From: a virus
IMG/VR virus record: IMGVR_UViG_3300036859_000029
Span: 1 to 23,324 of that record
Length of the DNA stretch: 23,324 nt
Reading direction: 5' to 3' (one strand)
The notes under the pieces were generated by a model that was not told the DNA's origin, did not search any database, and was given only the letters and a program-made list of their open reading frames with translations. This document shows, piece by piece, positions 7,679 through 22,918 of this stretch. A program made the translations under genes and the position numbers. Position 1 is the first letter of the stretch; every line of letters starts with the position of its first letter.

Positions 7679-7845
7679 CGCTTGGTCCTCTCAGCATCTA
7701 TGCGCCACTCCATGAAGAACGCCCCTACTCCGGCCATGGCCAGGCCGAGAGGGAGCGCGATCACGAATGCGGCTGCTGAGAACAGTATGCACCCTGTAAC
7801 AGGAAGTACAAAGGGAGTCAACCACCCAAGACTCTTCAGTGTCAT
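7675..7845 (-). CDS. Small two-helix membrane protein, 56 aa
   Basis: A short gene that fills the 166-bp gap between TerL and portal exactly. The ATG (7845-7843) shares one base with the TerL stop (TGATG), a GGTGG lies upstream, and its TGA overlaps the portal GTG as GTGA. This double overlap is strong evidence for a real gene. The protein begins MTLKSLGWLTPFVLPVTGCI and has two hydrophobic stretches (about residues 8-24 and 26-46) followed by a charged tail, MEWRIDAERTKR. That resembles a small membrane protein with a cytoplasmic C-terminus. A holin-like role is possible but its place in the packaging cluster gives no support. Function unknown. Confidence 0.75.
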   Translation of the reverse strand: MTLKSLGWLTPFVLPVTGCILFSAAAFVIALPLGLAMAGVGAFFMEWRIDAERTKR

Positions 7846-9158
7846 CAAATCCACCTGACTTTATACTCACCACGGTCGCGGTGCGCGGCCACGTAGCGCA
7901 TTCCATCCATGCCGTGATCGTCCTCTTTGACGGGTTCCTCCGCCTTGTCCCCGGTCTTGCCCTGCGGCCAGACGTACCCGGTGATCTCGTCCACTGTAGA
8001 CGTGGGCTTGCCGGAGTCGATCAGGAGCTGATCACGCTTCACCAGAGAATCACGAAGGAAGAAGATCCGGGGCTTGCCATCCGGCTGGACCTTGAACCTG
8101 GCCTGGGCGGTCTGTACTCCCTTGGTCTTGCCCTTCTTGGCGGGAGTGGTGGCCAGCCCCGTGTGTCGGGTGAAGGTGGCCCGGTCTTCCGCGTCGTGGT
8201 CACAGATGACGGCCACGGGTGCCGGTTCTTTCCAGACTCCGTTCCGGTCCTGAACCTGGGCGAGTACATCTTTGGCGTGATCCTCCACCAGTCGCTGCGT
8301 ACGGTAGATCTCACGGTAGAGGTAGAGCCTGCCATCCGGGTCTTCCGCCCACCACTGGCAGACGAAGGGGTTCGTGAAGCCGAAGTCGATCACCCAGTAC
8401 CGGGGCCAGCTCACGGGGATCTCGAAGCGGTTGACCAGGTGGACGGCCGGGTCATAGTCCTCATAGACCAGACCCTCCGCAGCGACCCACAGACCTCTTC
8501 TCAGACGCTGAAATCGAACCCCGGTCAGTGCGTCCAGCTTCGCCATGTAAGAGGCCCCAGGGACCGTTAGAGAGCCGTCCGGGAGGTACAGGGTCGGGTT
8601 GTCCTCATGCCTGCTCTCCAGCATCACCGTTAGACCGGCGCGTGTCCGCTCATGAAGCCAGTGGTTGGGACGGTCAGGGTTGCAATCCGCGATCAGCTGC
8701 TGGTAAGGCACGACTCCGTTACGAAGGCGGGTCGTGATCGCTTCCCAGTCGTCCGTGGTCAGCTCCGTCGCCTCCTGGACGTAGGCGATGTCGTACTCAC
8801 TGGACATGATCTTCGTGGCCTTGTCCATCCCGCCGATGGTGATCGTGGACCCGTTGCGGAACCGGTACTGTGCCGATTCCTCCGACGAGCCACCGTAGAA
8901 CCAGACCTCTCCGGACTTGAGAGCCTCCGTCGCGACCTTGGTACGCCAGGTCACCAGTGCGGTACTGCCCAGGGACGCGAGGGTCTTACGGACGATCAGG
9001 CCACGGGTACCGGGGTACTTGAGGCAGACCAGGAGCATCTTCTCAAGGCAAGCACGGGACTTACCCGTTCCAGCAGGGCCGGAGACGAGTATCTCCGGAG
9101 ACTTGTTCGTGATCAGCTCTCTGCAGGACCCTCGCGGACCGTAGGTGTGGGTGATCAC
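7845..9158 (-). CDS. terL: Terminase large subunit, 437 aa
   Basis: The DNA packaging motor: an ATPase that drives DNA into the prohead and a nuclease that cuts the concatemer. The ATPase domain shows the Walker A motif SGPAGTGKS (residues 26-34) and a Walker B/acidic motif, DIAYVQEATEL, with the likely catalytic Glu at 129; DCNPD (158-162) is the usual coupling motif. The RNase H-like nuclease domain begins at WVIDFGFTNPF (Asp258), continues with VICDHDAEDRATF (Asp320/Asp322) and closes with DHGMDGMRY, giving the expected acidic triad. The start is GTG, overlapping the TerS stop as GTGA. Length is normal for the family. Confidence 0.93.
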   Translation of the reverse strand: MITHTYGPRGSCRELITNKSPEILVSGPAGTGKSRACLEKMLLVCLKYPGTRGLIVRKTLASLGSTALVTWRTKVATEALKSGEVWFYGGSSEESAQYRFRNGSTITIGGMDKATKIMSSEYDIAYVQEATELTTDDWEAITTRLRNGVVPYQQLIADCNPDRPNHWLHERTRAGLTVMLESRHEDNPTLYLPDGSLTVPGASYMAKLDALTGVRFQRLRRGLWVAAEGLVYEDYDPAVHLVNRFEIPVSWPRYWVIDFGFTNPFVCQWWAEDPDGRLYLYREIYRTQRLVEDHAKDVLAQVQDRNGVWKEPAPVAVICDHDAEDRATFTRHTGLATTPAKKGKTKGVQTAQARFKVQPDGKPRIFFLRDSLVKRDQLLIDSGKPTSTVDEITGYVWPQGKTGDKAEEPVKEDDHGMDGMRYVAAHRDRGEYKVRWI

Positions 9159-9631
9159 ACGTCATCAGCCCCGATCAGCTGGTACGTCATCCCTCCGGAG
9201 ACGTCCAACTTCGTGGCACTGTCCAGGCCCATGAGCTTGGCACGGCGTTCCGCCACTTTGAGCAGTAGGGCTTGAGCGCGTAGGGCGAAGTCGTCGTCCT
9301 CCAGGGGCTCACCGTTGACGTTCACAACCTTGCCCACGGACACGACCAGGTGACGCTTGCCCAATCGCTCCGTGATATCCGCCTCCATGACGTCCAGCTT
9401 CTCCAGCTCGAACGCGACAGCGGCTTCCGCTGGTTCTTTGTCCACGTCGGCCATCGCCCGCTGGACCATCTTGTACGCGGCTGGTTTTGAGACCCCTAGC
9501 TGATCCGCGATCTGCTGGTATGTCCGCCCTTGTGAACGTAGTCGCGCGGCTTCGACGTCTCTCTCTACCGTCTCCAGAGAACGGGCGTACCGTCCGTCTC
9601 CACCACGGTTCTCAGATTCGGCCACGCCCAT
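9155..9631 (-). CDS. terS: Terminase small subunit, 158 aa
   Basis: DNA-recognition subunit of the packaging terminase. The N-terminal domain carries a helix-turn-helix at residues 35-57 (GRTYQQIADQLGVSKPAAYK), the usual TerS fold. A helical oligomerisation region follows (EKLDVMEADITERLG and FALRAQALLLKVAERRAKLM) with a short C-terminal tail that would contact TerL. I chose ATG at 9631-9629; a TTG start 15 codons upstream is possible but less likely. The Shine-Dalgarno is weak (ACGGAT). The gene overlaps terL by four bases. The iteron-like repeat array lies just upstream and could be its binding (pac) site as well as an origin. Confidence 0.8.
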   Translation of the reverse strand: MGVAESENRGGDGRYARSLETVERDVEAARLRSQGRTYQQIADQLGVSKPAAYKMVQRAMADVDKEPAEAAVAFELEKLDVMEADITERLGKRHLVVSVGKVVNVNGEPLEDDDFALRAQALLLKVAERRAKLMGLDSATKLDVSGGMTYQLIGADDV

Positions 9632-9690
9632 ATCCGTTCTGTTAACTCGGCCAGGGGTTTCCCTGGACAGCCACAATACCCGCCGTTAGT

Positions 9691-9965
9691 GATCAAGGGT
9701 GCAGGTTGGGTGCAGAAACTGTGCACCCTTGATCCTTTAGTTCCCGCCCTGGTCAGACTACAAGTTGATCATTCTTTAGCGATCAAGGGTGCAGAAGGTG
9801 CAGGTCCAGACCCACTCCTACCATGAAAACTTTCTACAGGAAGTATGGGGGTTTGATCTGCACCCTCTGCACCCTTGATCATCCAACAACGCTCTGACCA
9901 GCGGGTATAACGCAAAAGAGGGTGCACAACCCCGGACAGTATCCGAAGTTTGTGCACCCTTGATC
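9691..9965. repeat. Iteron-like array: five perfect copies of GATCAAGGGTGCA plus partial copies
   Basis: Perfect 13-bp copies lie at 9691-9703 (+), 9722-9734 (-), 9781-9793 (+), 9868-9880 (-) and 9953-9965 (-). Core-only copies (GGGTGCA or AGGTGCA type) lie at 9708-9714, about 9797, 9859-9866 and 9919-9926. Copies pair as inverted repeats: 9691/9722 has an 18-base spacer, 9781/9868 extends to 22 of 23 matching bases, and 9919-9929/9950-9960 is an 11-bp pair. This is the only large non-coding gap in the window (9632-9987, 356 bp) and is visibly more AT-rich than its surroundings. Its position between helicase and terS suggests a replication origin, with a packaging site or operator cluster as alternatives. 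A weak leftward promoter (TTGATC, 18 bases, TGTAGT, at about 9786-9757) can also be read here. Confidence 0.85.
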
Positions 9966-9987
9966 ATTTGGATAGTGGGCGGTATGA

Positions 9988-11349
9988 CTATTTGCGCCAT
10001 GGATCGTCGTCGGGAACAAGAAGGCGGATCCCCTTGAACCCCCGTGAACCGTTGATCGTGGCCGGTGCAGCACCCGCGTTCTGAAGCCGGTCGTAGAACT
10101 CCGTCGCCCTGAGCTGACCGACTCCGTTGTCAGATGCCCACTTCTTGTACTCCGAGTAGAGGGCGCTCCGGCTCACGTGCCCGAAGTCCGGCCCCAGCTC
10201 CGCCTTCTCGTCAACCCAGGTCCGAACCTGATCGACCCTCCGGCGGAAGTCGTCCATGGCCTCACGGGCGCTCTCCGGTTCCTCGAAGTTTCCCCGGGCC
10301 ATGAGCCGCCGGAGCGCCTCCACACCCTTGGCCGCGATGCCCCTGATCTCTTCGTCCACCTGCAGACGTTCGTCAAGGTGGCGATCTTCCCGCCCCGTGA
10401 AGTCGTTCGGGAACGGGATCACGACCCAGCGGGACATGTAGCCCGTGGTGACGTCGGCGGATCCCGGGATCTTGTTCGCGCTGAACATCGGAACGGCGTA
10501 GGGGGTGAACTCGAAGGCGTCCCTGCCTTTGAACTCGGCCGTGATCACGTCCTCACCCGTGATCCCCTTGAACTTGGCCGTCTGCTCCATGTACGTACCG
10601 TCGATGTCACCCGCGATGTTGGCCAGTTTGCCGAACAGGGACGCCGGAGCGAATCGCTCGGAGGCCAGGGCCTGCAGTGACTGGGCCGTGATGTTGCGCT
10701 CTCCGAGTAGACGCTTGATCACCCGGATTAGGGTCCCCTTGCCGTTGCGGCCCTGCCCGTGGAGCATGACGGCCTTGTGAAGGGGGTTGCCGGAGTACAT
10801 CATGTATCCGATCAGCTCCCAGACCAGATCGACCACATCGGCCGGGACCACGCCGTTCAGGAACTTCTCGAACTCGGGGCACTCCGCTCCGGGGTCGTAG
10901 TCCGTGGACAGCTGGGTCGTGCTCATGACCTCGGATGAGTGAGGGCGAAGCTCACCCGACTTCCAGTCAAGAAGCCCGTTCTGGAAGTTGATCAGTTCCT
11001 TGACCGGATCACAGGTGATGACGGGGACCTGGGCGGATACGAACGCCTCCGCGTTGGTCACGTGCCCGACCTGGAACCTCTCCTGGAGAAGCTCCGTGGA
11101 CCGGTTGCGGACCACGTGCGGGTCGGGGCTCCACACCCCTCCCTGGTAGCTCCAGAACCGGTCATCGACTCCTTGGGCCAGTGGACCCATGTCCATGATG
11201 TCGTCGGCCAGGGTCTTGACCAGGAACACGATCCGGCCGTCAACGCGAGCGGTGTACTCGGCCGCGAACCGGATCTGGTTCTCCTGCTGTTCCCGCATCT
11301 GGCGTTCGATGTCGTCCACGATGTCCGTGGGCTCTATGGGCATGGTCAT
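9988..11349 (-). CDS. Phage/plasmid SF3 helicase, P4/D5 type, 453 aa
   Basis: Replicative helicase of the P4 alpha / D5 family. The D5 N-terminal region (about 110-185) includes NFQNGLLDWKSGELRPHSSE. The SF3 core has Walker A GQGRNGKGT (198-206), Walker B NIAGDID (244-250) and the sensor motif FSANKIP (289-295), followed by the Arg-containing SRWVVIPFPNDF (306-317). A C-terminal winged-helix-like segment (RSALYSEYKKWASDNGV) is present. The separate primase domain of full-length P4-type proteins is absent and is supplied by the Prim-Pol gene just upstream. The ATG at 11349-11347 overlaps the Prim-Pol stop (ATGA) with AGGAG nine bases before; a second ATG two codons later is an alternative. It probably unwinds at the repeat region just downstream. 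Confidence 0.9.
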   Translation of the reverse strand: MTMPIEPTDIVDDIERQMREQQENQIRFAAEYTARVDGRIVFLVKTLADDIMDMGPLAQGVDDRFWSYQGGVWSPDPHVVRNRSTELLQERFQVGHVTNAEAFVSAQVPVITCDPVKELINFQNGLLDWKSGELRPHSSEVMSTTQLSTDYDPGAECPEFEKFLNGVVPADVVDLVWELIGYMMYSGNPLHKAVMLHGQGRNGKGTLIRVIKRLLGERNITAQSLQALASERFAPASLFGKLANIAGDIDGTYMEQTAKFKGITGEDVITAEFKGRDAFEFTPYAVPMFSANKIPGSADVTTGYMSRWVVIPFPNDFTGREDRHLDERLQVDEEIRGIAAKGVEALRRLMARGNFEEPESAREAMDDFRRRVDQVRTWVDEKAELGPDFGHVSRSALYSEYKKWASDNGVGQLRATEFYDRLQNAGAAPATINGSRGFKGIRLLVPDDDPWRK

Positions 11350-12380
11350 GACCGGACACTCCTGGTGGTTGTGGTGAACGACTTCATGGACGTGTCCACC
11401 TTGGGCAGGCATCCAAAGACGTTGTGAGAAGGGTCGGCCGCGATGCGCTGGACGGCGTTGACCAGCCCGCGCCTCCACTCCGACTCCGGGTTACGGTCGT
11501 CCACGGCTGTCATGAACCAGTCCTGGAGTTCCTCGATCGCGTTCTGCCCACCCGGGTGGCCCCCTTCGGAGTACCTGACGAGCGCCATCTGAGCGCGCAT
11601 GCACGCGTCATGTCTGCCTCCGGCCGGGATGGCGTCAAGCTTGTCCAGGACCCGCCGCATGTGGTGACACGGCTCGCCTTCGGACAGCCAGACATCCAGA
11701 ACGCTCCCGACCTGGGACAGGTTCATGTCGGCTTTCGCCGCGATGATCGACGGGTCCTGCCCGGTGTCCAGGAGGGTGACCCACGCGGCCGGTAGCTCCG
11801 TGAGGTTCTCCGGACGGGTGATGCCAGCGCCGGAGTACCGACGGCCCCATGACAGGTGCCCGTCGGGCTCGAACCAGTTGTAAGGCGTTCCGGTGCCCGG
11901 GTGAACCGACGGCGGGAGAACGGTGTACCTCCACCCCCAGTGAATGATGTCGATCCCCTCCCCCGGGTTGGCCCAGATCTTGCGGCCGTTGACACGGTAG
12001 TACCTGTGCTTGCTTCCGTCGGTTCTGGCCGTGGCCGTCCAGGTTGGCGGAAGTGGACCGTACTTGGCTTCGAGCCTCTCCAGCTCCGCGTCACCGTTCT
12101 TGTACGCGTCCACGTCTATGACGATGACGTTGTCCGGCATCCGGGTACCGATGTTGAAGAACCGGCCTTCGGAGATCCAGGCGTCTATCTCCTGGTGGGT
12201 GGCGTTGGCCCCTGAGCGGCCCGTGTAGCCCTTCGGAGGGCTGCTCTTGCCTTTCGCCCTCCTGTCATCCGGGACGCCTTTCTCCCAGGTCCACAGGGGG
12301 AACGGGTGCCACCCCTTCTCCAGGTACTCGTGGGCGTGTTCCGCGAACGGGTTGTATAGGGTTGACTGCTGGTCACGCAT
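11346..12380 (-). CDS. Bifunctional DNA primase/polymerase (Prim-Pol), 344 aa
   Basis: Archaeo-eukaryotic-type primase of the Prim-Pol group, which makes primers and extends DNA on plasmids, AICEs and phages. Motif I is VIVIDVDAY (catalytic Asp pair about 89-91), motif II is SKHRYYRV (123-130), and motif III lies in GIDIIHWGWRYTVLPPSVHP (142-161), where a conserved Asp and the PPSxH signature are seen. The C-terminal 170 residues are helical and may contact the helicase. I placed the start at ATG 12380-12378, but an in-frame ATG at 12452 overlaps the stop of the regulator gene as ATGA and would give 368 residues; neither has a strong ribosome site. It acts with the helicase directly downstream. 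Confidence 0.88.
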   Translation of the reverse strand: MRDQQSTLYNPFAEHAHEYLEKGWHPFPLWTWEKGVPDDRRAKGKSSPPKGYTGRSGANATHQEIDAWISEGRFFNIGTRMPDNVIVIDVDAYKNGDAELERLEAKYGPLPPTWTATARTDGSKHRYYRVNGRKIWANPGEGIDIIHWGWRYTVLPPSVHPGTGTPYNWFEPDGHLSWGRRYSGAGITRPENLTELPAAWVTLLDTGQDPSIIAAKADMNLSQVGSVLDVWLSEGEPCHHMRRVLDKLDAIPAGGRHDACMRAQMALVRYSEGGHPGGQNAIEELQDWFMTAVDDRNPESEWRRGLVNAVQRIAADPSHNVFGCLPKVDTSMKSFTTTTRSVRS

Positions 12381-12448: not shown

Positions 12449-12679
12449 TCATGCCGGGACGTTGTCTGTGAACAGGGACTCCATGGTGACTCCGAACGCC
12501 TTCGCCAGGTGGTACAGGTTGGTCGCCGACGGCTGGCACGTCCCGCCCTCCCATGTGGAGATCATGGGCTGAGTGGCTCCGGCCCTGTCCGCTAGCTGCT
12601 GTTGGGTCCATCCCCGGTGAATCCGTAGATCCCTGATGTTGATCATCATGTTGCGTGCTTCCCTTCCCTTCGTGCTCAT
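12449..12679 (-). CDS. Cro/C1-type HTH transcription regulator, 76 aa
   Basis: Small XRE-family DNA-binding protein; almost the whole length is the five-helix HTH domain. The recognition region is TQQQLADRAGATQPMISTWE (residues 25-44), and the last helix is NLYHLAKAFGVTMESLF. There is no dimerisation or cleavage domain, so it resembles Cro or a plasmid copy/transfer repressor more than a LexA-type repressor. Two starts are possible. ATG 12679 gives 76 aa; a -10 box ends seven bases before it, so the mRNA would be leaderless. ATG at 12649 gives 66 aa with AAGGGAAGG as ribosome site. It is the first gene of the leftward operon and likely binds the GTCAC/GTGAC operators beside it. Confidence 0.85.
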   Translation of the reverse strand: MSTKGREARNMMINIRDLRIHRGWTQQQLADRAGATQPMISTWEGGTCQPSATNLYHLAKAFGVTMESLFTDNVPA

Positions 12680-12714: not shown

Positions 12715-12751
12715 CTGGTTGACTGACCGTCACACTCTGTCTTGACTGGCA

Positions 12752-12791
12752 GTCACTGTGAGTGACAAACAGAGTCATCATGACATACACT
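12752..12791 (+). promoter_or_regulatory. Rightward promoter with overlapping operator for the transfer operon
   Basis: GTGACA (12762-12767) and TACACT (12786-12791) with an 18-base spacer form a plausible promoter; transcription would start near 12798, 23 bases before the translocase ATG. A perfect inverted repeat, GTCACT-GTG-AGTGAC (12752-12766), covers the -35 box. Nearby are a second symmetric element, GACTG-G-CAGTC (about 12743-12753), another GTCAC half-site near 12729, and an outer ACTCTGT/ACAGAGT pair (about 12734-12774). Binding there by the HTH regulator would block this promoter. Confidence 0.6.
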
Positions 12792-12820: not shown

Positions 12821-14053
12821 ATGAACTGGCTCACGATCTTCTATCTGGTCGTCGCTGGTCTGGCGTACCTGGGGTACCGGCACATGAAGAACCGGGCCGT
12901 CATCCGCATGGAGACCCGGAAGGCCAAGAGGTCCATGGTCGTTCATGAGATGGCCAAGAACTCCGTGAAGGCCCGCCGCCCCGTTCGCCAGGTCATCCAC
13001 ACCCACGCTCCGGATTCCGTCGTGTTCCGGATGTTCCGGTGGAAGCCGGAGAAGCGGATCCGGAACAAAGTCCGGATCGCACGGCGCGGATTCCGGGGCC
13101 GGTACGTCCGGATCCGTCCGGATCAGCACATCATGATCGTCGGAATGACCGGATCCGGGAAGTCGTCCACTCTCCGGGTTCTGGGAGCCTGGGCGCTGCT
13201 GGCCCCGGGCTGGTACCTGGAGGCGTTCGACGGAAAGTGGGGCGCGTCGGTCGTCGCCTATGAGGGGAAGGCCCGCGTTCACATCACCATCGACGCCATC
13301 GAAGCCAGGCTTCGGGATCTGGTGGAGAGGGAGCTGCCACTACGTGCCCGCCGACTGCGTGAAGACGGCCGGGTGTCACATCTCGCCATCATCATGGATG
13401 AGTCCAGGCTTCTGAACGAACTGACCTCGGAGGCTCTCCGCAACCTGGTGACCCTGATTCAGACCGGGCGCGAACTGGGTGTCCACTGCTGGTTCGGCCT
13501 GCAGGATCCGAAGGCGGACAGTATCCCGACGGCCATCCGCGATCAGTTCACATGCAAGATCGTTCACATGCTCCAGAACCAGGACGCCGCACAGGTGGCC
13601 CTGAAGGAACTGGTGGCCGGTGGATGGCATCCCCACAAGCTCATGAGGTCCGGTCAGGTGCTCGTATGGGAGCCCGTACGTAAGCCTCGCGTCCTGTTCG
13701 GCCTGTGGCTGACCGTCGGCAGGCTGGCGTCTCTGCAGGGGCTCACAGGCCCTCTCAGCGCCCCGGAGCTGGACGTGCCCGTGAGCCTGGTGAAAGCGTC
13801 CGTCCGCCCCGTGGGAAACGCTCCTGACCTGGGCAACCGCACCCGGACGGACGGACGGACGGACGCGCTCACGGAGCGCCAGGCCGCCGCCGTGATGGTG
13901 CTGGCCGAAGGTGGCGCGATGGGTCCGGCCGCACTCGCCGCCGAACTCGGCCTGGAGCGCAACCGGGCACACGACGTACTGAAGCAACTGGTGGCCAAGG
14001 GATTTGCCACCACCACGGAAGAGGGCATTTACACCCTCGTTAAGGAGAACTGA
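12821..14053 (+). CDS. FtsK/TraB-like DNA translocase with N-terminal membrane anchor, 410 aa
   Basis: AAA+ motor of the FtsK/SpoIIIE/TraB group, which pumps double-stranded DNA across membranes. Residues 3-20 (WLTIFYLVVAGLAYLGYR) form one membrane segment, followed by a basic linker. The motor has Walker A GMTGSGKS (108-115), a second conserved block FDGKWG (136-141), Walker B LAIIMDE (188-194) and an FGLQDP motif (225-230). Residues about 350-405 form a winged helix-turn-helix (PAALAAELGLERNRAHDVLK), the place where TraB and FtsK gamma domains read DNA. It is shorter than the classic Streptomyces TraB but similar to FtsK-like proteins of AICEs. A GAGGGG site precedes the ATG. It is followed two bases later by the SpdB-like gene. 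A DNA-transfer role is inferred from family and neighbours. Confidence 0.88.
   Translation: MNWLTIFYLVVAGLAYLGYRHMKNRAVIRMETRKAKRSMVVHEMAKNSVKARRPVRQVIHTHAPDSVVFRMFRWKPEKRIRNKVRIARRGFRGRYVRIRPDQHIMIVGMTGSGKSSTLRVLGAWALLAPGWYLEAFDGKWGASVVAYEGKARVHITIDAIEARLRDLVERELPLRARRLREDGRVSHLAIIMDESRLLNELTSEALRNLVTLIQTGRELGVHCWFGLQDPKADSIPTAIRDQFTCKIVHMLQNQDAAQVALKELVAGGWHPHKLMRSGQVLVWEPVRKPRVLFGLWLTVGRLASLQGLTGPLSAPELDVPVSLVKASVRPVGNAPDLGNRTRTDGRTDALTERQAAAVMVLAEGGAMGPAALAAELGLERNRAHDVLKQLVAKGFATTTEEGIYTLVKEN
13009..13122. repeat. Cluster of six TCCGGA motifs just before the Walker A region
   Basis: TCCGGA occurs at 13009, 13026, 13059, 13071, 13107 and 13117, six times in 114 bases. Three copies continue as GTCCGGAT, one as ATCCGGAA and one as its reverse complement. 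The copies fall in two codon frames (P-D and x-R-x), so amino-acid repeats alone do not explain them fully, although several sit in Arg-rich codon runs. Confidence 0.6.
13844..13863 (+). repeat. Tetranucleotide tandem repeat (CGGA)x5
   Basis: Five uninterrupted CGGA units lie within the translocase gene, in the linker between the motor and the C-terminal winged helix, and encode the repeating RTDGRTD stretch. Unit gain or loss by slippage would shift the frame just before the DNA-recognition domain. Confidence 0.85.
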
Positions 14054-14055
14054 TC

Positions 14056-14751
14056 ATGACTCAGCCGATGCCCGTCAAGCCCCCGAAGGTCCGCCGTCCG
14101 ATCACGGAGACGGCTCCGGGCCTACTCCTGTTCGTGCTCGCCGTGACGGCCCTGGTCGTCTCCGGCTGGAGCATGGCGACCCTGCTCCACGACCAGGCGT
14201 CCGCCCCCTGGTGGGTGGCCTCATTGGGTGTCGGGGTCTTCGATGTGCTGGCGCTGCAGGCCGCGCTACTGGTCAAGGCACGTCGTGACGATCCCTGGAA
14301 GGCGGCCGGTGCGCAGTGCGTGATGATCCTGTCCGTCATCTCCAGCATGGTCGTCAACGGCGCACATGGCTGGTCTCTGGGCGGCTGGACCACGGCCATG
14401 GTCCTCGGGGCCGCCCCGGTCACGTTCGAAGTGGCGTTCGCGATCAAGTACAGGACGCTGACGGTCCTGATCTGGGTCTTGTTCGGCAAGGAGTCCATGA
14501 CCCGGCTCCGGCATGAGGCGTGGTCGCGGATCGCCCTTCCGGATGTTCCGGATTCTCCGGCCATCATCCCCGGATCCGTGGAACGGATGGCCCCGGTGGA
14601 ACGGATCTCCGGTCGTTCCGGAATCCGGAACCAGGTCGCGGAACTGTACGGATCCGGAATCACGGATCCGGAACGGATCATCGCGGAACTTCCGGAATCC
14701 AATCCGGAATCCATCCGCCGGTACGTCCGTGAGATCCGGAAGTCCGGATAA
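14056..14751 (+). CDS. SpdB-like (DUF2637) membrane spread protein, 231 aa
   Basis: Four membrane segments are visible: about 21-43 (PGLLLFVLAVTALVVSGWSM), 53-74, 86-105 and 110-130, with short loops including SGWSMATLLHDQ and AHGWSLGGW. This matches DUF2637/SpdB proteins of Streptomyces plasmids and AICEs, which work with TraB in spreading DNA through mycelium. The C-terminal 60 residues (NQVAELYGSGITDPERIIAE...) form a small HTH-like helical domain. The start follows the translocase stop by two bases, so the two are probably co-translated. The 3' third of the gene is packed with TCCGGA motifs in all three codon frames, suggesting a DNA-level role overlapping the code. Family role is known for Spd proteins in general; its function here is inferred. 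Confidence 0.8.
   Translation: MTQPMPVKPPKVRRPITETAPGLLLFVLAVTALVVSGWSMATLLHDQASAPWWVASLGVGVFDVLALQAALLVKARRDDPWKAAGAQCVMILSVISSMVVNGAHGWSLGGWTTAMVLGAAPVTFEVAFAIKYRTLTVLIWVLFGKESMTRLRHEAWSRIALPDVPDSPAIIPGSVERMAPVERISGRSGIRNQVAELYGSGITDPERIIAELPESNPESIRRYVREIRKSG
14538..14748. repeat. Dense TCCGGA / ATCCGGAA motif cluster, candidate transfer locus (clt-like)
   Basis: Ten TCCGGA sites lie in 211 bases, at 14538, 14547, 14617, 14624, 14653, 14667, 14691, 14703, 14735 and 14743. Five extend to ATCCGGAA in one orientation (14623, 14652, 14666, 14702, 14734), two to its reverse complement TTCCGGAT (14537, 14546) and two to the symmetric TTCCGGAA (14616, 14690). They occupy all three codon frames (5, 3 and 2). 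By eye I find one TCCGGA in 4321-6420 and none in 13200-14500. TraB-type translocases recognise clustered 8-bp repeats; the one I recall for plasmid pSVH1 is GACCCGGA, close to this motif. Confidence 0.65.
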
Positions 14752-14762
14752 CCCATGATCGA

Positions 14763-14801
14763 GGTACCCGCCGGATGACCTCCATATCTCCGGCGGGTAC
14801 C
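14763..14801 (+). terminator. Perfect 13-bp inverted repeat between SpdB-like gene and next gene
   Basis: GGTACCCGCCGGA (14763-14775) and its exact complement (14789-14801) flank a 13-base loop. The repeat starts 11 bases after the SpdB-like stop and ends before the AGGAGG of the next gene. No T-run follows. It may be a terminator/attenuator, an mRNA-stabilising hairpin or a protein-binding palindrome. Confidence 0.6.
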
Positions 14802-14819
14802 GCCAAACAGGAGGATCTT

Positions 14820-15032
14820 ATGCAGTGGCTGATTACGTTCACGATCCTGGGGACGGGTTGTTACCTGCTGTCATGTGCGATCTGGCCGTACAAGCCGTGC
14901 CGTCTGTGCGACGGGAGCAAGCGGCATATGGCCGTGGGAACCGAGCGTGCCTATCGGCGGTGCTTGTGGTGCAAGGGTTCGGGTGAACGGCTCCGGCTGG
15001 GAAGGAAGGTGCTCAACCGGATGCATCGCTAG
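14820..15032 (+). CDS. Small membrane-anchored CxxC zinc-finger-like protein, 70 aa
   Basis: Residues 2-22 (QWLITFTILGTGCYLLSCAI) form a membrane segment. After it come CRLCDGSKRH and, 25 residues on, CLWCKGSGERLRLGRKV. The two CxxCxG(S) halves resemble a DnaJ-type zinc ribbon. I know this layout from short genes that follow ftsK/spd-like genes in Streptomyces AICEs and plasmids; its role there is not established to my knowledge. The ATG at 14820 is chosen because AGGAGG lies six bases upstream; an in-frame ATG 15 codons earlier falls inside the hairpin. Probably a membrane accessory of the transfer module. Confidence 0.7.
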   Translation: MQWLITFTILGTGCYLLSCAIWPYKPCRLCDGSKRHMAVGTERAYRRCLWCKGSGERLRLGRKVLNRMHR

Positions 15033-15064
15033 TCATCACTATCAACGGAAGGTACGATGAACAC

Positions 15065-15292
15065 ATGAGGGTCATAGACGATGCGGAGCTACCACGGCGC
15101 ATCCCGTGGGAGACGTTCCAGAACGGTGAGACCTGGGAGGTAACCCCGGTCATCGAGTTTCAGAAGACGCCCCGCCAGTTCTGCGCCGCTCTCAGCATCT
15201 GGGCACGGAGGCACGGCCGCCGGTCCACCTGGAAGACAGAGGGTGACACCGTCACCTTTCGCATGGAGCTGCTCCGAGAAGAGGGACAATGA
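15065..15292 (+). CDS. Hypothetical protein, 75 aa
   Basis: A compact protein (MRVIDDAELPRRIPWETFQN..., then PRQFCAALSIWARRHGRRST) with an alternating strand-helix-strand look, ending in VTFRMELLREEGQ. I do not recognise the family. The Arg/Lys-rich helix and flanking strands could form a small nucleic-acid-binding fold, but this is only an impression. The start is ATG at 15065; GGAAGG lies about 13 bases upstream, slightly far. Its stop overlaps the ATG of the next gene (ATGA), which argues for a translated gene within the transfer operon. Confidence 0.6.
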   Translation: MRVIDDAELPRRIPWETFQNGETWEVTPVIEFQKTPRQFCAALSIWARRHGRRSTWKTEGDTVTFRMELLREEGQ

Positions 15293-15507
15293 TCACTTAT
15301 CTACTGCTGACCGCCGTCGGCCTGGTCTACATCGTGAGTGCCGTTCTGCAGGTCCGGCAGGCCAGGGCCAAGAGCCAGGCCGATACCGTGCTGGCCTCAG
15401 AATTGGCCAGTCTCAAGGAGACGGTCACCGCCCTGGAGGCTAAGGCCGTCTCGATCCAGAACGGTCAGCGGGCTACGGCCGGAGACCTCAACAGCGTCCC
15501 GCGATGA
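15289..15507 (+). CDS. Small membrane protein with coiled coil, 72 aa
   Basis: One N-terminal membrane segment (residues 2-22, ITYLLLTAVGLVYIVSAVLQ) followed by a predicted coiled coil (about 28-58: ASELASLKETVTALEAKAVS). It is the last gene of the rightward operon, overlaps the preceding gene by four bases and is followed by two strong hairpins. The architecture fits a small membrane-bound assembly or spacer protein. It could in principle be holin-like (single segment plus charged tail), but it sits in the transfer operon and there is no endolysin nearby. Function unknown. Confidence 0.65.
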   Translation: MITYLLLTAVGLVYIVSAVLQVRQARAKSQADTVLASELASLKETVTALEAKAVSIQNGQRATAGDLNSVPR

Positions 15508-15543: not shown

Positions 15544-15580
15544 GAAGCCCCCGACCCGCCGCGAGGCACTCGGGGGCTTC
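15544..15580. terminator. Strong bidirectional terminator between convergent operons
   Basis: GAAGCCCCCGA (15544-15554) and TCGGGGGCTTC (15570-15580) form a perfect 11-base GC-rich stem with a 15-base loop. It lies between the ends of the rightward transfer operon (15507) and the leftward tail operon (15592) and can serve both. A short AGAA/TTC edge takes the place of a long T-run, as is usual in high-GC bacteria. Confidence 0.85.
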
Positions 15581-15591
15581 GTCATGTCCGG

Positions 15592-16110
15592 CTATGCGAC
15601 GCGCTGATAATAGACGAAGCTGTCTGCCTGAATCGTGGCCGTGGCCACTCCGGCACCTACGGCGAACTGGAGCGTGATAGCCCCGGCTGTGATCATAGTC
15701 AGGTCAATCATGTCCTCATAGATGCTGAAGGCATTCGCCGTACCGGCCGTACCTCCGACCCGGACGTCCGTTCCGATGGCTCTCCGGACGGACATTACGT
15801 TCGTGTCGATGTTCGTAGTGGCCGCCAGCTCCGGAGCGACGATGTGACGGCTCATGCCAGCGTCAACCGGCCCGGTCCACTGGAAGTTCACATCACCGTT
15901 GGCCGAGTCCACCGGGGCGTCATAGGCCACCAGGGCATGGACGTAGTACCGGGCGTTGGCCTCCCCCGTGAACGTCAGGCCGGTCACGTCCACGAACGTG
16001 GTCAAGGTCGTGCTCTGTGATCCGGCTGAGTTCGTGACGTATTCCCGCCGCCCCGCGTTCAGAAGGGCGGCCGTCACGGTCTGGCCAGCGAGGATCTTTG
16101 GGTATGTCAT
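15592..16110 (-). CDS. Tail fibre-like / receptor-region protein B, 172 aa
   Basis: Last gene of the tail operon and a clear paralogue of the protein encoded just upstream. Both share TVTAALLNAG near the N-terminus, an ARY..H.LV.YDAP strand in the middle, and the end of the chain (DSFVYYQRVA here, DSIIYYQRIA in the partner). The body alternates strands with Thr/Gly turns, as in compact beta-sandwich fibre tips. This family, with a TxxLTAGQxVTAALLNA start, is frequent at the end of tail clusters in Streptomyces phages, which suggests a host-contact or fibre role. The ATG at 16110 gives an N-terminus aligned with the paralogue; an in-frame ATG 13 codons earlier would overlap that gene. Confidence 0.65.
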   Translation of the reverse strand: MTYPKILAGQTVTAALLNAGRREYVTNSAGSQSTTLTTFVDVTGLTFTGEANARYYVHALVAYDAPVDSANGDVNFQWTGPVDAGMSRHIVAPELAATTNIDTNVMSVRRAIGTDVRVGGTAGTANAFSIYEDMIDLTMITAGAITLQFAVGAGVATATIQADSFVYYQRVA

Positions 16111-16114
16111 GGAG

Positions 16115-16621
16115 TCACGCGATCCTCTGGTAGTAGATGATCGAGTCACTCTGAAGGGTCGCCGTACCGGCGGCGTTGGCCGCGAACCGGAACTGAGCGG
16201 TCCCCGCGCTCACCGTCTGCAGGTCGGTGATCTCCTCATAGACGCTGAAGGCGTTGGCCACGGCGTTCGGTCCACCCGCGCTGACAGCTGTAGTGGCTCC
16301 ACGCCTGATCTTCGCCACCGTGGACGCGATGTTCGTCGTTGTGGCCAGGGCCAGATACTCACAGTTCCGCGCCGTGGTGGCCCCCGACGGCATCGACCAG
16401 TCGAACTTGATATCCGTGGCAGTCGGCGCGTCATAGGACACCAGGACGTGAATCTGATACCTGGCTCCGGCCTCCACCGCGAACCCCAGGTCCGTTGCGT
16501 CGGCGAAGGTGGTCGTGGCGTTGGTCTGCGCTCCGGCCGCGTTCGTGACGAATTCGAGCTTGCCCGCGTTCAGGAGGGCGGCCGTCACCTTCTGACCGGC
16601 GGTGAGTGTCGGGTACGGCAT
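16115..16621 (-). CDS. Tail fibre-like / receptor-region protein A, 168 aa
   Basis: Starts MPYPTLTAGQKVTAALLNAG, a motif I associate with short beta-rich proteins at the distal end of actinophage tail clusters. The middle segment EAGARYQIHVLVSYDAP and the ending DSIIYYQRIA are matched in the next gene, so the pair arose by tandem duplication. The ATG is preceded by a perfect AAGGAGG, implying strong translation, while the second copy has a weak ribosome site, so the two products are probably made at different levels. No enzymatic motif is seen. Receptor contact or fibre function is inferred from position. Confidence 0.65.
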   Translation of the reverse strand: MPYPTLTAGQKVTAALLNAGKLEFVTNAAGAQTNATTTFADATDLGFAVEAGARYQIHVLVSYDAPTATDIKFDWSMPSGATTARNCEYLALATTTNIASTVAKIRRGATTAVSAGGPNAVANAFSVYEEITDLQTVSAGTAQFRFAANAAGTATLQSDSIIYYQRIA

Positions 16622-16630
16622 CGGTCCTCC

Positions 16631-18859
16631 TTACAGTGAAAGGATCATGGGCTGAGTGAGGCTGACAGACTCCCCGGCCAGCTGGTTCTTGACGACCCCG
16701 TTCACGGAACGGGTCACGGTGAACGTCTGCGGGCTGGTGGTCCCGGTGATGGCTGTCACGCTCATGACCTCACCGCCCACGGTCACATTGAACGGGAACT
16801 CGGAGGCGTACGCCGCGCTGTCAACCCAGACCGGGCCGGACGAAGTGGCCACAGTCATGGATGTGTCCACGTCTGTAATAGGCCCCGTGAGGCTGGACCC
16901 CTCCGTGTCGGCGCGTCCCAGGCTGGCGCTGTCCAGGACGGCTATCCGCCACGGCGACTCCGGCGACCCGTTGAAGCTGATCACGTGTTCGAACTGGTCG
17001 AACCACTCCGTCCAGCCCTGGACAATCTGACTGATGTCTCCGGCCGGTAGCCACACCGGGGGTCCCGTGATCACGACACGATCGCCCGGGAGTATCGAGA
17101 GGGCATCGGCGGTCAGCGCGTAGCTGGCCGTGAACGTGGACCGCTTCAGGTGGACAGTGATCACGGGATATCTAGGCTCGTCCACTGTCCCCAGATGGAC
17201 CCTGAATCCTGCCTGATCCGCTAGCTGGTCGTCGTCCTCCACATTGAGCGTGAGGGCGTTGTCATACTTACCGATACCGGAAGGTGGGGGGAGCACTGAG
17301 AGTGGCCCAGATTCGAGTACAGAGCGCGCTGAAGACCCTCCCTCACGGGACACCGTGATGTCGTTCCGAGACAACTGATCATCGTCCACCGGGATCGGTA
17401 CCTCGAACAGATCACTGGCCGTGTAGGACAGTGTGATGTCCGCGCTTTGGTTGTATAGGGAGAGCCGTGTCCGGTACTCCAGGCCGAACCGGTCCCGTGG
17501 CTCGTACAAGATCCCTAGGTGGACGTCCACGCATTCCTGAAGCAGATCCGGGAGGGTTTTCAGTCCCTGCGGCCCCATGCTGACGTTTTCAGCCCCGCCC
17601 CCCGTGATGTTGACAAACGACACACCCTCTTCTGAGCACAGGCGCGCCAGCCGGAGACGTGGGGTTTCCCCGTTATAGGCGTTCGTCTGGTCCGACAGGT
17701 CGAAGGATGAGTCTGTCTGGATCTGAAAGGACACGTGCCCGATGACCGTGGTCGTGAGCCCCTTGCCCGGAGCCATCGTCACGGATGAGACCCTCTGGAC
17801 GGTCACGCTGTTGAATGGGTTGTTCGTGTTCTCCAGGTTCCCGCCGATGTAGAGCATGGACACCGTGGTGTCCACGTTGGCTCCGTTCTGGGTGAGTTCG
17901 ACGGAGCAGCGGACCAGCTGACCGCTAAGGCTGGTGAAGCCGATGGCCCCGAGGTCACCGACGGACACATTGTCAGCGTCGAAGGCACGAAGGCCGACCG
18001 TGGAACCGGCGCTCACGTAATACAGCTCCCAGCGCCGCGCCGTCCCGGTCGTGGCTATCGAACAGATGATCTGCCCGTTGGTCGCTCCCCCGGCCGGGAT
18101 CGCCAGAAGAAAGCGGACCTGGCTCTCTCCGGTCACGGTGTAGGACGGAATGGTTCCCTTGAATGACGCGGAGCCCATGGTGGGCAGGGCATCGGAGCAG
18201 GCGAACACCGTCGAAGACGCCAGGTCTGGAGTCCCTGAGATGACCATGTTCTTGGCACCGTTCACAGCGCTGGCTATGAAGGTGGAGTCCTCCCCGTCCT
18301 CACATGGCCAGTACGCGATGACCGGGTTGACCGTCTCATTGATCAGGCCCCGGTAGAGGGTCGATCGCAGAGGGCTCGCACCCTGGTTCAGCCGCCGAAG
18401 CACTCCGGCCGCCTCGATCGGTACCCACACGTCATTACCGGTCAGATCCCAGTTCTGGGGCCAGGCCACGATCTCACCGTGGAACCGGTACCGCTTCGTA
18501 CCCTCCTGGTCCACTGACACCCGGACGGCGGTGTTCCTTCCGATCTTCCCGTACAGGGGTGACATTGGGTTACGCGGGCTGTACTTCCCCGTCCTGTTGT
18601 TCAAGGTGAAGCTGCAGGTGTTCTGTTGAGCGCGTGACGACTCGTCAGGGCGGCCCCCGGTAATGCGGATCTTGTCCGCGTACCTGACGTCCGGGCTGAT
18701 GTCCATCCACGCTTCGTCAACGTAGATCTCCACCATCGGCCCGACCGGTGTCCCGTACGTGGCGAAGCCGGGACCGGAACCCATGCTCGGTGACCCGCCC
18801 CATCGGCGGTACCGGCCTAGGTTCTGGTCCCATTCGGCGACCCTGGACGCGGTACTCAT
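16631..18859 (-). CDS. Large minor tail protein (tail tip / baseplate), 742 aa
   Basis: The largest protein in the window. The N-terminal 180 residues (PMVEIYVDEAWMDISPDVRY... TCSFTLNNRTGKYSPRNPMS... YRFHGEIVAWPQNWD) are a typical distal-tail/tail-hub beginning of actinophage minor tail proteins. Residues about 190-400 (VIAYWPCEDGEDSTFIASAV, then SVELTQNGANVDTTVSMLYI) resemble a concanavalin/LamG-like carbohydrate-binding insert. The remaining part (LLQECVDVHLGILYEPRDRF, then ALSILPGDRVVITGPP) is the conserved hub-like C-terminal region. No peptidase or lysozyme motif was seen. The ATG directly follows the preceding TAG. It likely forms the tail tip and may bind the cell surface. Confidence 0.8.
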   Translation of the reverse strand: MSTASRVAEWDQNLGRYRRWGGSPSMGSGPGFATYGTPVGPMVEIYVDEAWMDISPDVRYADKIRITGGRPDESSRAQQNTCSFTLNNRTGKYSPRNPMSPLYGKIGRNTAVRVSVDQEGTKRYRFHGEIVAWPQNWDLTGNDVWVPIEAAGVLRRLNQGASPLRSTLYRGLINETVNPVIAYWPCEDGEDSTFIASAVNGAKNMVISGTPDLASSTVFACSDALPTMGSASFKGTIPSYTVTGESQVRFLLAIPAGGATNGQIICSIATTGTARRWELYYVSAGSTVGLRAFDADNVSVGDLGAIGFTSLSGQLVRCSVELTQNGANVDTTVSMLYIGGNLENTNNPFNSVTVQRVSSVTMAPGKGLTTTVIGHVSFQIQTDSSFDLSDQTNAYNGETPRLRLARLCSEEGVSFVNITGGGAENVSMGPQGLKTLPDLLQECVDVHLGILYEPRDRFGLEYRTRLSLYNQSADITLSYTASDLFEVPIPVDDDQLSRNDITVSREGGSSARSVLESGPLSVLPPPSGIGKYDNALTLNVEDDDQLADQAGFRVHLGTVDEPRYPVITVHLKRSTFTASYALTADALSILPGDRVVITGPPVWLPAGDISQIVQGWTEWFDQFEHVISFNGSPESPWRIAVLDSASLGRADTEGSSLTGPITDVDTSMTVATSSGPVWVDSAAYASEFPFNVTVGGEVMSVTAITGTTSPQTFTVTRSVNGVVKNQLAGESVSLTQPMILSL

Positions 18860-19369
18860 CTACTCGTCCCAGATGACCCAGCACCGCATGTCCACGGCCG
18901 TGGTCGGCGTGGTGGCGCGGACGCGGAGAAACTTCGAGACGGCCACGATCGGACGTTCGTCCGGCATGAACTGGTATGAGTACGAAAGCGGGGCGTTGCT
19001 GCCCGCCGTAGTGTCGATGGACACGGCGTCAAAAACCCGCGCGGCCGTGGTGGTGCCTTCGGCGGACGACGTATACCCGGTGTTGGAGACTCCCAGCGTG
19101 AGCAGGGACGCCGGGGCGTTCGGGTCCAGGGGCTGGACACCCGCCGCCACATGAGCCGTCACGGTGGCCGCCACGTCCGTCTGGAGCAGCTCCACAACGG
19201 AGTCGGCCCCGGGGTAGTCGTCCACCGAGAAGCCCCATGCGATCAGCTGGATCTGTCGCGTTGACGGGGTGCTGATCTGGAGCATGGTCTTGATCGCGGT
19301 ACCTGTGGTCACGGACTGCTGAGCGGCCGTGGTGGGCATCGGGCCGTTCCACGTCTTGTATCTGTGCAC
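18860..19369 (-). CDS. Minor tail / structural protein, 169 aa
   Basis: Begins VHRYKTWNGPMPTTAAQQSV, read from a GTG at 19369 with AGGAGA nine bases upstream. The longer in-frame extension would be the antisense-like shadow of the tape measure gene and was rejected. The chain (TRQIQLIAWGFSVDDYPGAD, VVELLQTDVAATVTAHVAAG, VQPLDPNAPASLLTLG) belongs to a family I recognise from actinophage tail clusters next to the tape measure or tail tip. Its composition is beta-rich with no enzymatic motif. It ends one base before the ATG of the large minor tail protein. A structural role at the tail tip is inferred from its place. Confidence 0.7.
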   Translation of the reverse strand: MHRYKTWNGPMPTTAAQQSVTTGTAIKTMLQISTPSTRQIQLIAWGFSVDDYPGADSVVELLQTDVAATVTAHVAAGVQPLDPNAPASLLTLGVSNTGYTSSAEGTTTAARVFDAVSIDTTAGSNAPLSYSYQFMPDERPIVAVSKFLRVRATTPTTAVDMRCWVIWDE

Positions 19370-19380
19370 GTTCGTATCTC

Positions 19381-21219
19381 CTAACTCAGTGCTCGCTGAA
19401 CGGAGTCGGAGCCCGACCCTGCCCGTGCCCGGATGTTCTTCTTCAGCCAGGTCATGAATTCGTCTCCGGCGTTTCCGCCGACCCATTCGAGTTGTAGCTT
19501 CTGGACGCCTCCACCAGCCCCTGCAGCCGCCATGCGCCTGCTGTCCCCGGCCGTGTGAACGGTTGACCCCGGGGCCAGGTTCACCAGCTCCGGCCCCTGC
19601 TCCCCGACCCAGCGCATCCCGCCCTGTGGTCCGCCGGTCGCTGCTCCGGTGATACCTCCGTGTGCGTAGTGCTGATACGCGGGGGCCTGTCCGGCGTTCA
19701 CCTTCCGGTAGTACTCCGTGATCGTGATGGACTTGCCGTGAAGACTGTTGACGTACCGCTGGAACAGGGACAGCTGATGCATGGCCTCTGCGGTCCGGGC
19801 CTTGATGTTCACGGTCTTCTTCGTGATCATTCCGAGAAGTTTGTGGTTCCACTGATCGACCTTGCCAATGGCCGAGTCGAAAGCCTTCGTCGCGCCCTCT
19901 TTGATGTGGTCGAACCCCTTGGCCGCAGCCTTGATCTTTCCTCCGATGCCCGGCATCCATCCGAAGGCCGTTGCCGCTCCGTCCAGGATCGTCCCGACCA
20001 CGTCAAGGAAGAAGCCCACCATGTACTTCAGGCCCTGAAGAACGACCTTGACGCCAGCCAGCGCGGCCATGCCCATACCTACGAACGCCAGCGTGACGAT
20101 TTTCCGGAAGGTCTCGGAGCGTTGCCAGGCCACGATCAGGACGGCCGCCAGTGCCGCGATGGCCAGAACCACGGCCCCGATGGGGTTGGCCGCCAGTACG
20201 ACGTCAAGGATTCCCTGGGCAACGGCCCAGGCCCTGACAGCCAGCACAATGGCCATGATGGTGGGGGCCAGGTAATCCATCACACCCGGGGGGATAGCCC
20301 CCACAATGGCCGCCAGAGCCCCGGCCACGGCCAGTCCTACGCCACTGAAGGGAGCCAAAGCGGATAGCACGTTTCCCACGATCTTGGCCAGGTTCTGGAA
20401 GAGGGTCATGATGCCAGGGATCTTGTCCTTCACTCCGGCCATGAAGTCCTGGAACCCGCTGCTGTTCTTCAGGCTCTGGCCGAAGTCCCGGAACTTTTTG
20501 GTGGCAGCTTCGAGGCCGCCCGTCACGGTCCCGGAGAAGGGGAGAAACGCGCTGATGATCCCGCCGAAACCAAGAGCAATGTTTCCTAGGGACTTCAGGA
20601 AGTCGGGGAGCGTCTTCTTGGCGGCGTTGTTCAGGTCGCCCATGAACGCCTTGAACCCGCCGCTCTTGGCACCCCCGGAGATGCTGTCCATCATCCCCTT
20701 GAACGCTCCGGCCGCCGTCTTGACCAACGGCGTCATCATCGGGAGCAGGCCCCGGAGCGTCTTCAGTCCCTGGGTGAAGATGGGCATGGTGGTACTGGAG
20801 AGGGAATCCGACCACTTCTTGAAATCGTCCTTCAGACCGGCGAAGGCCACCGCCGTGGCACGGGTCGCCGGAGGCATGTTGGACAGGGCCTTCTTGTAGG
20901 CTTCCATGTCCTTGGCCGCAGACGCACTACCCGCCGCCGCCGACTCTTGGGCCTTCGTGTAAAGCTCGGACGCCTTCGTGACCTCCTGGAACTGGGGCAC
21001 GACTGCGGCACCGAAGGCACCGACGGCCGCACCGATGGACGCCACGGCCGCTACAGAGGCCCCTGCAGCCGCCGCGAGTGGTCCGGCCAGTCCAGGAGCA
21101 GCGGACGCCACCAGGGCCTTCATGGAGCCCAGGGCCTTCCCCAGACCCTCCTTGGCCTTGTTGAACCCCTTGTCCGTGTCGTTGATGGAGCGGACGAAGA
21201 TGTTCACTTCGTTAGGCAT
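19381..21219 (-). CDS. Tape measure protein, 612 aa
   Basis: Determines tail length and is threaded through the tube. Features seen are an Ala/Gly/Lys-rich helical N-terminus (NEVNIFVRSINDTDKGFNKA), long helical stretches, and a central hydrophobic region with at least two membrane-like segments (about residues 290-365, including LAIAALAAVLIVAW). The C-terminus (GGPQGGMRWVGEQGPELVNL, then MTWLKKNIRARAGSGSD) carries the GExGPELV motif that is very common at tape measure C-termini. Its 612 residues predict a short tail, near 90 nm if the usual 0.15 nm per residue holds. The ATG has GGGGAG upstream and overlaps the end of the frameshifted chaperone reading frame by eight bases, the classical arrangement. 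Confidence 0.92.
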   Translation of the reverse strand: MPNEVNIFVRSINDTDKGFNKAKEGLGKALGSMKALVASAAPGLAGPLAAAAGASVAAVASIGAAVGAFGAAVVPQFQEVTKASELYTKAQESAAAGSASAAKDMEAYKKALSNMPPATRATAVAFAGLKDDFKKWSDSLSSTTMPIFTQGLKTLRGLLPMMTPLVKTAAGAFKGMMDSISGGAKSGGFKAFMGDLNNAAKKTLPDFLKSLGNIALGFGGIISAFLPFSGTVTGGLEAATKKFRDFGQSLKNSSGFQDFMAGVKDKIPGIMTLFQNLAKIVGNVLSALAPFSGVGLAVAGALAAIVGAIPPGVMDYLAPTIMAIVLAVRAWAVAQGILDVVLAANPIGAVVLAIAALAAVLIVAWQRSETFRKIVTLAFVGMGMAALAGVKVVLQGLKYMVGFFLDVVGTILDGAATAFGWMPGIGGKIKAAAKGFDHIKEGATKAFDSAIGKVDQWNHKLLGMITKKTVNIKARTAEAMHQLSLFQRYVNSLHGKSITITEYYRKVNAGQAPAYQHYAHGGITGAATGGPQGGMRWVGEQGPELVNLAPGSTVHTAGDSRRMAAAGAGGGVQKLQLEWVGGNAGDEFMTWLKKNIRARAGSGSDSVQRALS

Positions 21220-22664: not shown

Positions 22665-22918
22665 GACGGCTTCTCCTCGATCCGGGGCCGCTTCGGCTGG
22701 GTGACGACTGGCACGGGTCTCGGGCGGTCGTCCTTCGGGATGTCGGCCGCGAGACGTACGCCCGTGAAGCCCAGGAAGGAAGAAGCCAGGACCAGAGACT
22801 TTTCACCCAGAACATAGGGCTGGCCGGATTCATCCCAGGCCAAAACGGTACGAGTGGTCTCGGCCTTCGTCTCTTCCAAGGTGTAGGTGGCCACGATCGG
22901 ATACGTGATCTCGAACAT
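22661..22918 (-). CDS. Small tail-region protein, complete right copy, 85 aa
   Basis: MFEITYPIVATYTLEETKAE... ending KRPRIEEKPS. This is the full version of the protein that is cut at the left edge. The ATG (22918-22916) shares a base with the tail tube stop (here TGA, in the left copy TAA), and its stop overlaps the ATG of the following gene. A central strand pattern (TRTVLAWDESGQPYVLGEKS, then LGFTGVRLAADI) and a Pro/Arg-rich tail are visible. Three residues differ from the left copy. Unknown function; probably a structural or assembly factor of the tail. Confidence 0.75.
   Translation of the reverse strand: MFEITYPIVATYTLEETKAETTRTVLAWDESGQPYVLGEKSLVLASSFLGFTGVRLAADIPKDDRPRPVPVVTQPKRPRIEEKPS

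Follow-up and report, generated by a model that had tools for sequence, protein, structure and literature searches.

We analysed a virus genome, IMG/VR record IMGVR_UViG_3300036859_000029, whose whole stretch of 23,324 nucleotides is called the window below, and in particular a plus-strand operon at positions 12821-15507 that encodes an FtsK/TraB-family translocase, an SpdB-like membrane protein and a small membrane protein with CxxC motifs. The operon is flanked by tail genes (15592-21789, minus strand) and by genes of a primase-polymerase (Prim-Pol) and a D5-type helicase (9988-12377, minus strand). These coordinates confirm the place between tail and replication genes that was given in the original prediction, which had been made from the sequence alone and had proposed an element with two ways of dispersal, by packaging and by a conjugation-type DNA pump.

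Genes of the transfer operon

The first gene (12821-14053, plus strand) encodes a translocase of double-stranded DNA (dsDNA) with a length of 410 amino acids (aa), in which an N-terminal hydrophobic (membrane) stretch is followed by Walker A (GMTGSGKSS) and Walker B (LAIIMDE) motifs and a C-terminal winged helix, as in the membrane FtsK-type Tra proteins of Streptomyces TraB/clt systems. Its Pfam matches stay under the curated cut-offs (FtsK_SpoIIIE 7e-4, HerA_C 2e-4, TrmB/MarR winged helix 9e-5), as does the match to the NCBIfam model plasmid_TraB (7e-8), but its assignment to the FtsK family is secured by homologues and by a profile search, where the best solved-structure match was the conjugative coupling protein TcpA (6o1w, E=7e-14). 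The predicted membrane translocase with both Walker motifs and the winged helix was thus borne out.

The second gene (14056-14751, plus strand) specifies a 231-aa membrane protein with a C-terminal helix-turn-helix (HTH)-like domain, which shares 54% identity across 219 aa with L145:10452-11237, a protein in the SpdB position of a Streptomyces element resembling actinomycete integrative and conjugative elements (AICEs). From the earlier name DUF2637/SpdB-like only the latter part can be kept, as the protein did not match Pfam DUF2637 (PF10935) at its cut-off, either in the window or in sibling phages, and the model matched one of six aligned homologues (E=0.0075). AlphaFold models of the translocase and the SpdB-like protein, based on two-sequence alignments, were unusable (mean pLDDT of 37 and 49, respectively) and were discarded.

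Further downstream on the same strand are located the small membrane protein with two CxxC motifs and Streptomyces relatives (14775-15032, likely start 14820), a 75-aa protein with no assigned function, 91% identical in a sibling phage (15065-15292), and a 72-aa protein with one hydrophobic segment, a coiled-coil-like tail and a weak holin match, E=0.08 (15289-15507).

A repeat array inside the spdB-like gene

At its 3' end the spdB-like gene contains an array of short repeats (14527-14748, plus strand), in which TCCGGA and CGGATC/GATCCG occur ten times each, the ten TCCGGA copies spanning 14538-14748; we consider it a candidate clt-like docking site. All tests of arrays were exploratory, because the analysis arose from this same data set. 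The codon usage of the genome predicts 1.3 copies of TCCGGA, and ten copies did not arise in any of 20,000 shuffles; when only the gene's own codons were shuffled, the mean was 6.4 of 10 and the observed count was still in excess (p=0.006). Synonymous changes relative to the sibling phage G001 are rarer in the array (6 of 61 vs 32 of 108, p=0.004).

Arrays in the same place, composed of other motifs (CGGATC, GGCTCAG, GTCTCA, CGGACA, CGGACG and GTTCCG), were noticed in AICE-like elements and in other phages. Motif counts exceed those of synonymous shuffles in nearly all close spdB-like homologues, and when 181 genes from 19 loci were ranked by the strength of their clusters, the top nine were all spdB-like. 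The arrays of SF3 gp690 and TurkishDelight gp97 were not significant (p=0.84 and 0.06, respectively), and when the whole plasmid pIJ101 was scanned for clusters, its spdB gene did not stand out with a dominant array of this kind.

Outside the HTH codons, the linker DNAs resemble each other more in their motifs the more similar the C-terminal HTH domains of the SpdB proteins are (Mantel r=0.47, p=1e-4). This association persists once linker-protein and membrane-domain similarity are removed (partial r=0.36, p=0.001), but membrane-domain similarity itself shows no correlation with the motifs (r=0.14, p=0.14); several loci share ancestry, and Mantel tests remove such kinship incompletely. The GGCTCA/GTCTCA class of motifs occurs in L144, L145 and L208, the three elements whose HTH is of the 'LGVS' type. 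Because motif content follows the SpdB HTH, the C-terminal domain of the SpdB-like protein is the predicted reader of the array in its own gene. We found no published description of arrays inside spdB genes, which is weak evidence, the literature coverage on DUF2637 being narrow.

Some further repeats and arrays were observed. A second cluster, of ATCCGG/CGGATC, lies inside the translocase gene (13009-13155, plus strand) and recurs in the same place in G001 and in the AICE-like element L143, and the translocase gene also holds a tandem CGGA run at 13844-13865. In the AICE-like element L208 a 321-aa protein of unknown kind (L208:9380-10345) takes the place of the translocase, adjoining an spdB-like gene with 13 copies of GTCTCA. 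In the Streptomyces phage Kromp, which forms plaques and was isolated on the laboratory strain S. lividans JI 1326, the spdB-like gene gp82 (L213:4374-5330) carries a strong CGGACA array, and three more small genes are located downstream, with no function assigned to any of these in the annotation.

Origin and relatives of the operon

Nothing in 50,697 phage records matched the translocase type of the window. Its best relatives in a search of 344 Streptomyces genomes (46%, 44%, 34% and 33% identity) each belong to an integrated element that also encodes a serine integrase, a Rep protein and an SpdB-like protein, and no capsid genes were recognised among the called genes of these four elements. 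The nearest plasmid matches show the gene order FtsK, small open reading frame, DUF2637. Relatives of the CxxC protein were detected in 81 of 296 Streptomyces genomes, and in the five best-scoring loci (L216-L220) the match lies directly downstream of an FtsK-family gene; a gene call stands at or by the match in four of the five, the remaining one being placed by match position, and in L219 and L220 the simple gene caller predicted another frame across the match. The gene set had been described in the original prediction as one known from Streptomyces plasmids and AICEs, and the operon proteins are indeed related to their Tra and Spd proteins. Judged from these homologies, the operon is derived from Streptomyces AICEs or plasmids.

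FtsK-like genes are present in 271 isolated phage records, many of them of large phages, and match the protein of phage G004, which is of another type than that of the window. The presence of such translocases in ordinary phages, earlier named as a possible objection to a role in transfer, was seen for the other type and not for the one studied here; spdB-like genes occur in the plaque-forming Kromp and in prophages.

AICEs are defined by Int, Rep and Tra modules, the Rep module being RepSA, RepAM, or Prim-Pol together with RepPP/D5 (PMC3218068). The window has such a Rep module, consisting of the Prim-Pol (11346-12377, minus strand; PF09250, E=5e-26) and the D5-type replicative helicase (9988-11349, minus strand; PF19263 8e-20, PF08706 (D5_N) 2e-13), the latter 28% identical to Rep of the AICE-like element L144. 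It also has an FtsK/SpoIIIE-type Tra, recognised by AICE-like homologues and the profile search, Pfam alone staying below cut-off. Neither a tyrosine nor a serine integrase was recognised among the scanned proteins, and with Rep and Tra present and no Int the window is not an AICE. The proposed phage-plasmid/AICE hybrid is upheld as to replication genes of AICE type and the co-occurrence of the transfer operon with capsid genes, but not as to AICE membership.

Exchange of the operon between related phages

In sibling phage G001 the operon occupies the same position and is 88% identical in DNA sequence; the structural genes of this phage share ~73% identity with those of the window, and its replication genes are unrelated. 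The ratios of nonsynonymous to synonymous substitution rates (dN/dS) relative to G001 amount to 0.19 for the translocase, 0.04 for the SpdB-like protein, 0.17 for the CxxC protein and 0.11 for the 75-aa protein, so these four operon genes are under purifying selection. Values of dS are 0.29-0.39 in the operon, 0.73 in the large terminase (TerL) and 1.10 in the portal gene, and this lower divergence indicates that the operon was exchanged between phages as a cassette. The replication region of G001 is shared with siblings G002 and G003, and its transfer operon with the window, which is modular exchange in one small phage group.

Among 46 sampled TerL relatives, an FtsK-family gene is present in 10, an SpdB-like gene in 4 and both in 3. 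The operon is absent from G002 and G003, whose terminase is 84% identical, and is therefore dispensable for the phage cycle. Other versions of the translocase and SpdB are found in G012 and G748. A chimeric assembly, by which the original prediction could have been refuted, is ruled out, since genomes independent of each other combine the operon with capsid genes, in the same arrangement in G001 and in other versions in G012 and G748; genomes having both modules do exist beyond the window.

Organisation of the phage genome

Positions 1-649 and 22676-23324 are 97.4% identical over 649 bp, and this overlap of the record ends gives a circular map of ~22,675 bp and an essentially complete genome. 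IMG/VR classifies the record as linear despite the overlapping ends, the circularity being masked by strain variation. The ends of G002 likewise overlap (280 bp, 96.8%), and the terminal repeats of G004 and G012 are exact.

With TerL, portal, protease, capsid, tape measure and tail proteins the virus is a tailed phage (Caudoviricetes). The structural genes are encoded on the minus strand and comprise the major capsid protein (4372-5706; phrog_10, E=3e-40), head maturation protease (5703-6404; phrog_2976, E=2e-83), portal (6401-7678; phrog_2662, E=2e-69), TerL (7845-9158; phrog_2, E=1e-37), minor tail protein (16631-18859; phrog_5313, E=6e-194; relatives in Streptomyces and Thermobifida phages), tape measure protein (19381-21219; phrog_991, E=5e-17, and others) and a head-tail adaptor; an HTH protein in the small-terminase position (9155-9631, minus strand) directly precedes TerL. 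Terminase and tail relatives are found in phages of Streptomyces and Thermobifida and in prophages of Streptomyces, Kitasatospora, Lentzea and Amycolatopsis, and the virus is probably a small soil phage of a Streptomyces-like actinobacterium.

Pfam and PHROGs scans of the window proteins revealed no integrase, also upon reading of the gene list, and no partition genes. No endolysin was recognised in this complete tailed-phage genome or in G001-G004, only holin-like small proteins; the tape measure protein is matched by one PHROG that is labelled endolysin, probably through an artefact of naming.

The stretch that separates the D5 helicase gene from the terminase genes contains a dense cluster of direct and inverted GATCAAGGGTGCA repeats in both orientations (9686-9969), an iteron-like candidate replication origin, likely either that or a packaging-related site; the comparable region in G001-G003 has a different cluster, of CCAACTC. 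A Cro/C1-type HTH_3 regulator (12449-12646, minus strand; PF01381, E=4e-12) is divergent from the transfer operon, whose promoter region contains operator-like repeats TTGACTGACCGTCAC / TTGACTGGCAGTCAC (12719-12756) in a stretch conserved in G001 and G004. A GC-rich, terminator-like perfect inverted repeat of 11 bp (15544-15580) separates the convergent transfer and tail operons.

Discussion

The explanation that we favour, with moderate confidence, is that of a tailed phage which would use a Tra/Spd operon for virion-free spread through the mycelium, in addition to packaging. As a part of this explanation, we consider it about evenly balanced that the phage has recruited a working operon, from AICEs or Streptomyces plasmids. 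The SpdB-like protein would be seated in the membrane and, through its C-terminal HTH, bind the array at the 3' end of the gene that encodes it; the second cluster, within the translocase gene, may be bound as well. Circular phage DNA would thereby be docked at the membrane. The FtsK-type translocase, aided by the CxxC protein, would then pump dsDNA through the septa of a hypha or into another hypha in contact with it, and the phage genome could spread through the mycelium with no need for virions. Known clt loci comprise multiple repeats and are bound by Tra proteins (PMC3583192, PMC4170104), and SpdB2 of pSVH1 binds DNA and TraB (PMC4170104); the array of the window suggests a self-encoded DNA docking site resembling clt. 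That the array is bound, that DNA is pumped and that it passes from one compartment or cell to another we infer from the comparison of sequences, and we regard intramycelial or hyphal transfer as the leading, though unproven, function.

Several observations weigh against this explanation. The motif follows SpdB and not the translocase, unlike the TraB-clt pairing of plasmids. As the linker adjoins the HTH within a single gene, common descent may account for part of the correlation between motif and HTH, the 5' part of the gene also correlates marginally (r=0.21, p=0.05), and more distant Streptomyces SpdB-like genes show no array. Moreover, SpdB and the array occur in prophage G014, with no translocase in the same record by a PF01580 search, and an spdB-like gene with an array was found in the prophage of S. 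sp. NRRL S-337 and in phage Kromp, with no translocase found nearby. Such pairs may have a task in tethering or segregation, or may make use of a different pump, and together with the other-type FtsK-like genes of large phages they make a role other than conjugation possible.

The strongest rival, unlikely in our judgement but deserving serious attention, is a membrane tether or partition device made of the SpdB-like protein and the array, in which the translocase would remove phage DNA from septa as they close; an extrachromosomal phage genome would so be kept in growing compartments and spores, with no cell-to-cell transfer. A plasmid-like state would need a segregation device, and neither integrase nor partition genes were recognised in the window; the pairing of array with SpdB, even where a translocase of its own is missing, fits this proposal as well. 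SpdA2 of pIJ101 acts in segregational stability via repeats in its own gene (PMC4170104). What speaks for transfer rather than partition is the joint presence of translocase, SpdB and CxxC genes in one operon, which is the transfer arrangement of AICEs and plasmids.

It is rather improbable that the translocase and membrane proteins serve the infection cycle, i.e. DNA entry, host take-over or positioning of DNA for replication and packaging. The FtsK-like copies of ordinary phages may act in this way, and Kromp is a plaque-forming phage with an spdB-like gene, but the window's translocase type is unmatched among isolated phages, its nearest relatives are in AICE-like elements devoid of recognised capsid genes, and G002 and G003 lack the operon. 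Finally, that the arrays are operators of self-regulation or a by-product of codon choice in the linker, and not binding sites for transport, appears very improbable: they do lie in coding DNA, fixed codon choice explains part of the count and linker protein similarity correlates with motif content too, but the excess over synonymous shuffles in nearly all close homologues, the conserved synonymous sites and a 3'-end position far from the promoter, odd for an operator, argue otherwise.

The favoured explanation, spread by a recruited transfer operon, places the virus between several known systems. With AICEs of the pSAM2 and SLP1 type (Int, Rep and FtsK-type Tra) it shares relatives of the translocase, SpdB-like and CxxC proteins, Prim-Pol/D5 replication and a predicted dsDNA pump without a type IV secretion system, but it differs by a complete tailed-phage head and tail set and no recognised integrase. 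The plasmids pIJ101, pJV1, pSVH1 and pWTY27 (TraB, clt and Spd) likewise have a single FtsK-family Tra, an SpdB-like protein and repeated short motifs, which in the window form a candidate cis site; the window differs in having phage genes and an array that is located within the spdB-like gene and whose motif varies with the SpdB HTH. TcpA of plasmid pCW3, also a membrane FtsK-type coupling ATPase, operates with a large conjugation apparatus, none of which is present in the window. FtsK-family ATPases of large phages (Gilgamesh, Mycobacterium phages) belong to another subfamily, matching G004 and not the window, and no SpdB-like neighbour is annotated in Gilgamesh, the sole large phage inspected. 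Phage-plasmids (P1, N15 and SSU5 groups; actinobacterial extrachromosomal prophages) resemble the virus, as far as genes tell, in the circular map, own replication genes, iteron-like cluster and no recognised integrase, the FtsK-type transfer operon being the difference; in the P1-like group a relaxase gene or oriT was reported in only two phage-plasmids (PMC10879196). A phage-plasmid-like hybrid is plausible.

More generally, we put forward as a tentative possibility that phages of multicellular actinobacteria use a plasmid-derived machine, a membrane protein reading an array in its own gene plus a dsDNA pump, which moves naked genomes between compartments, and possibly hyphae, without virions, and that SpdB with its internal array may represent a DNA docking device, not described before, in general use among actinobacterial phages, AICEs and plasmids. 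The strong array in the spdB-like gene of phage Kromp makes the SpdB/array part open to bench testing now. The array and its likely reader protein would provide a candidate cis site for the poorly understood Spd functions and, if the proposal is true, the virus would have two dispersal routes, a particle and a cell-to-cell DNA pump, in hosts composed of connected hyphae.

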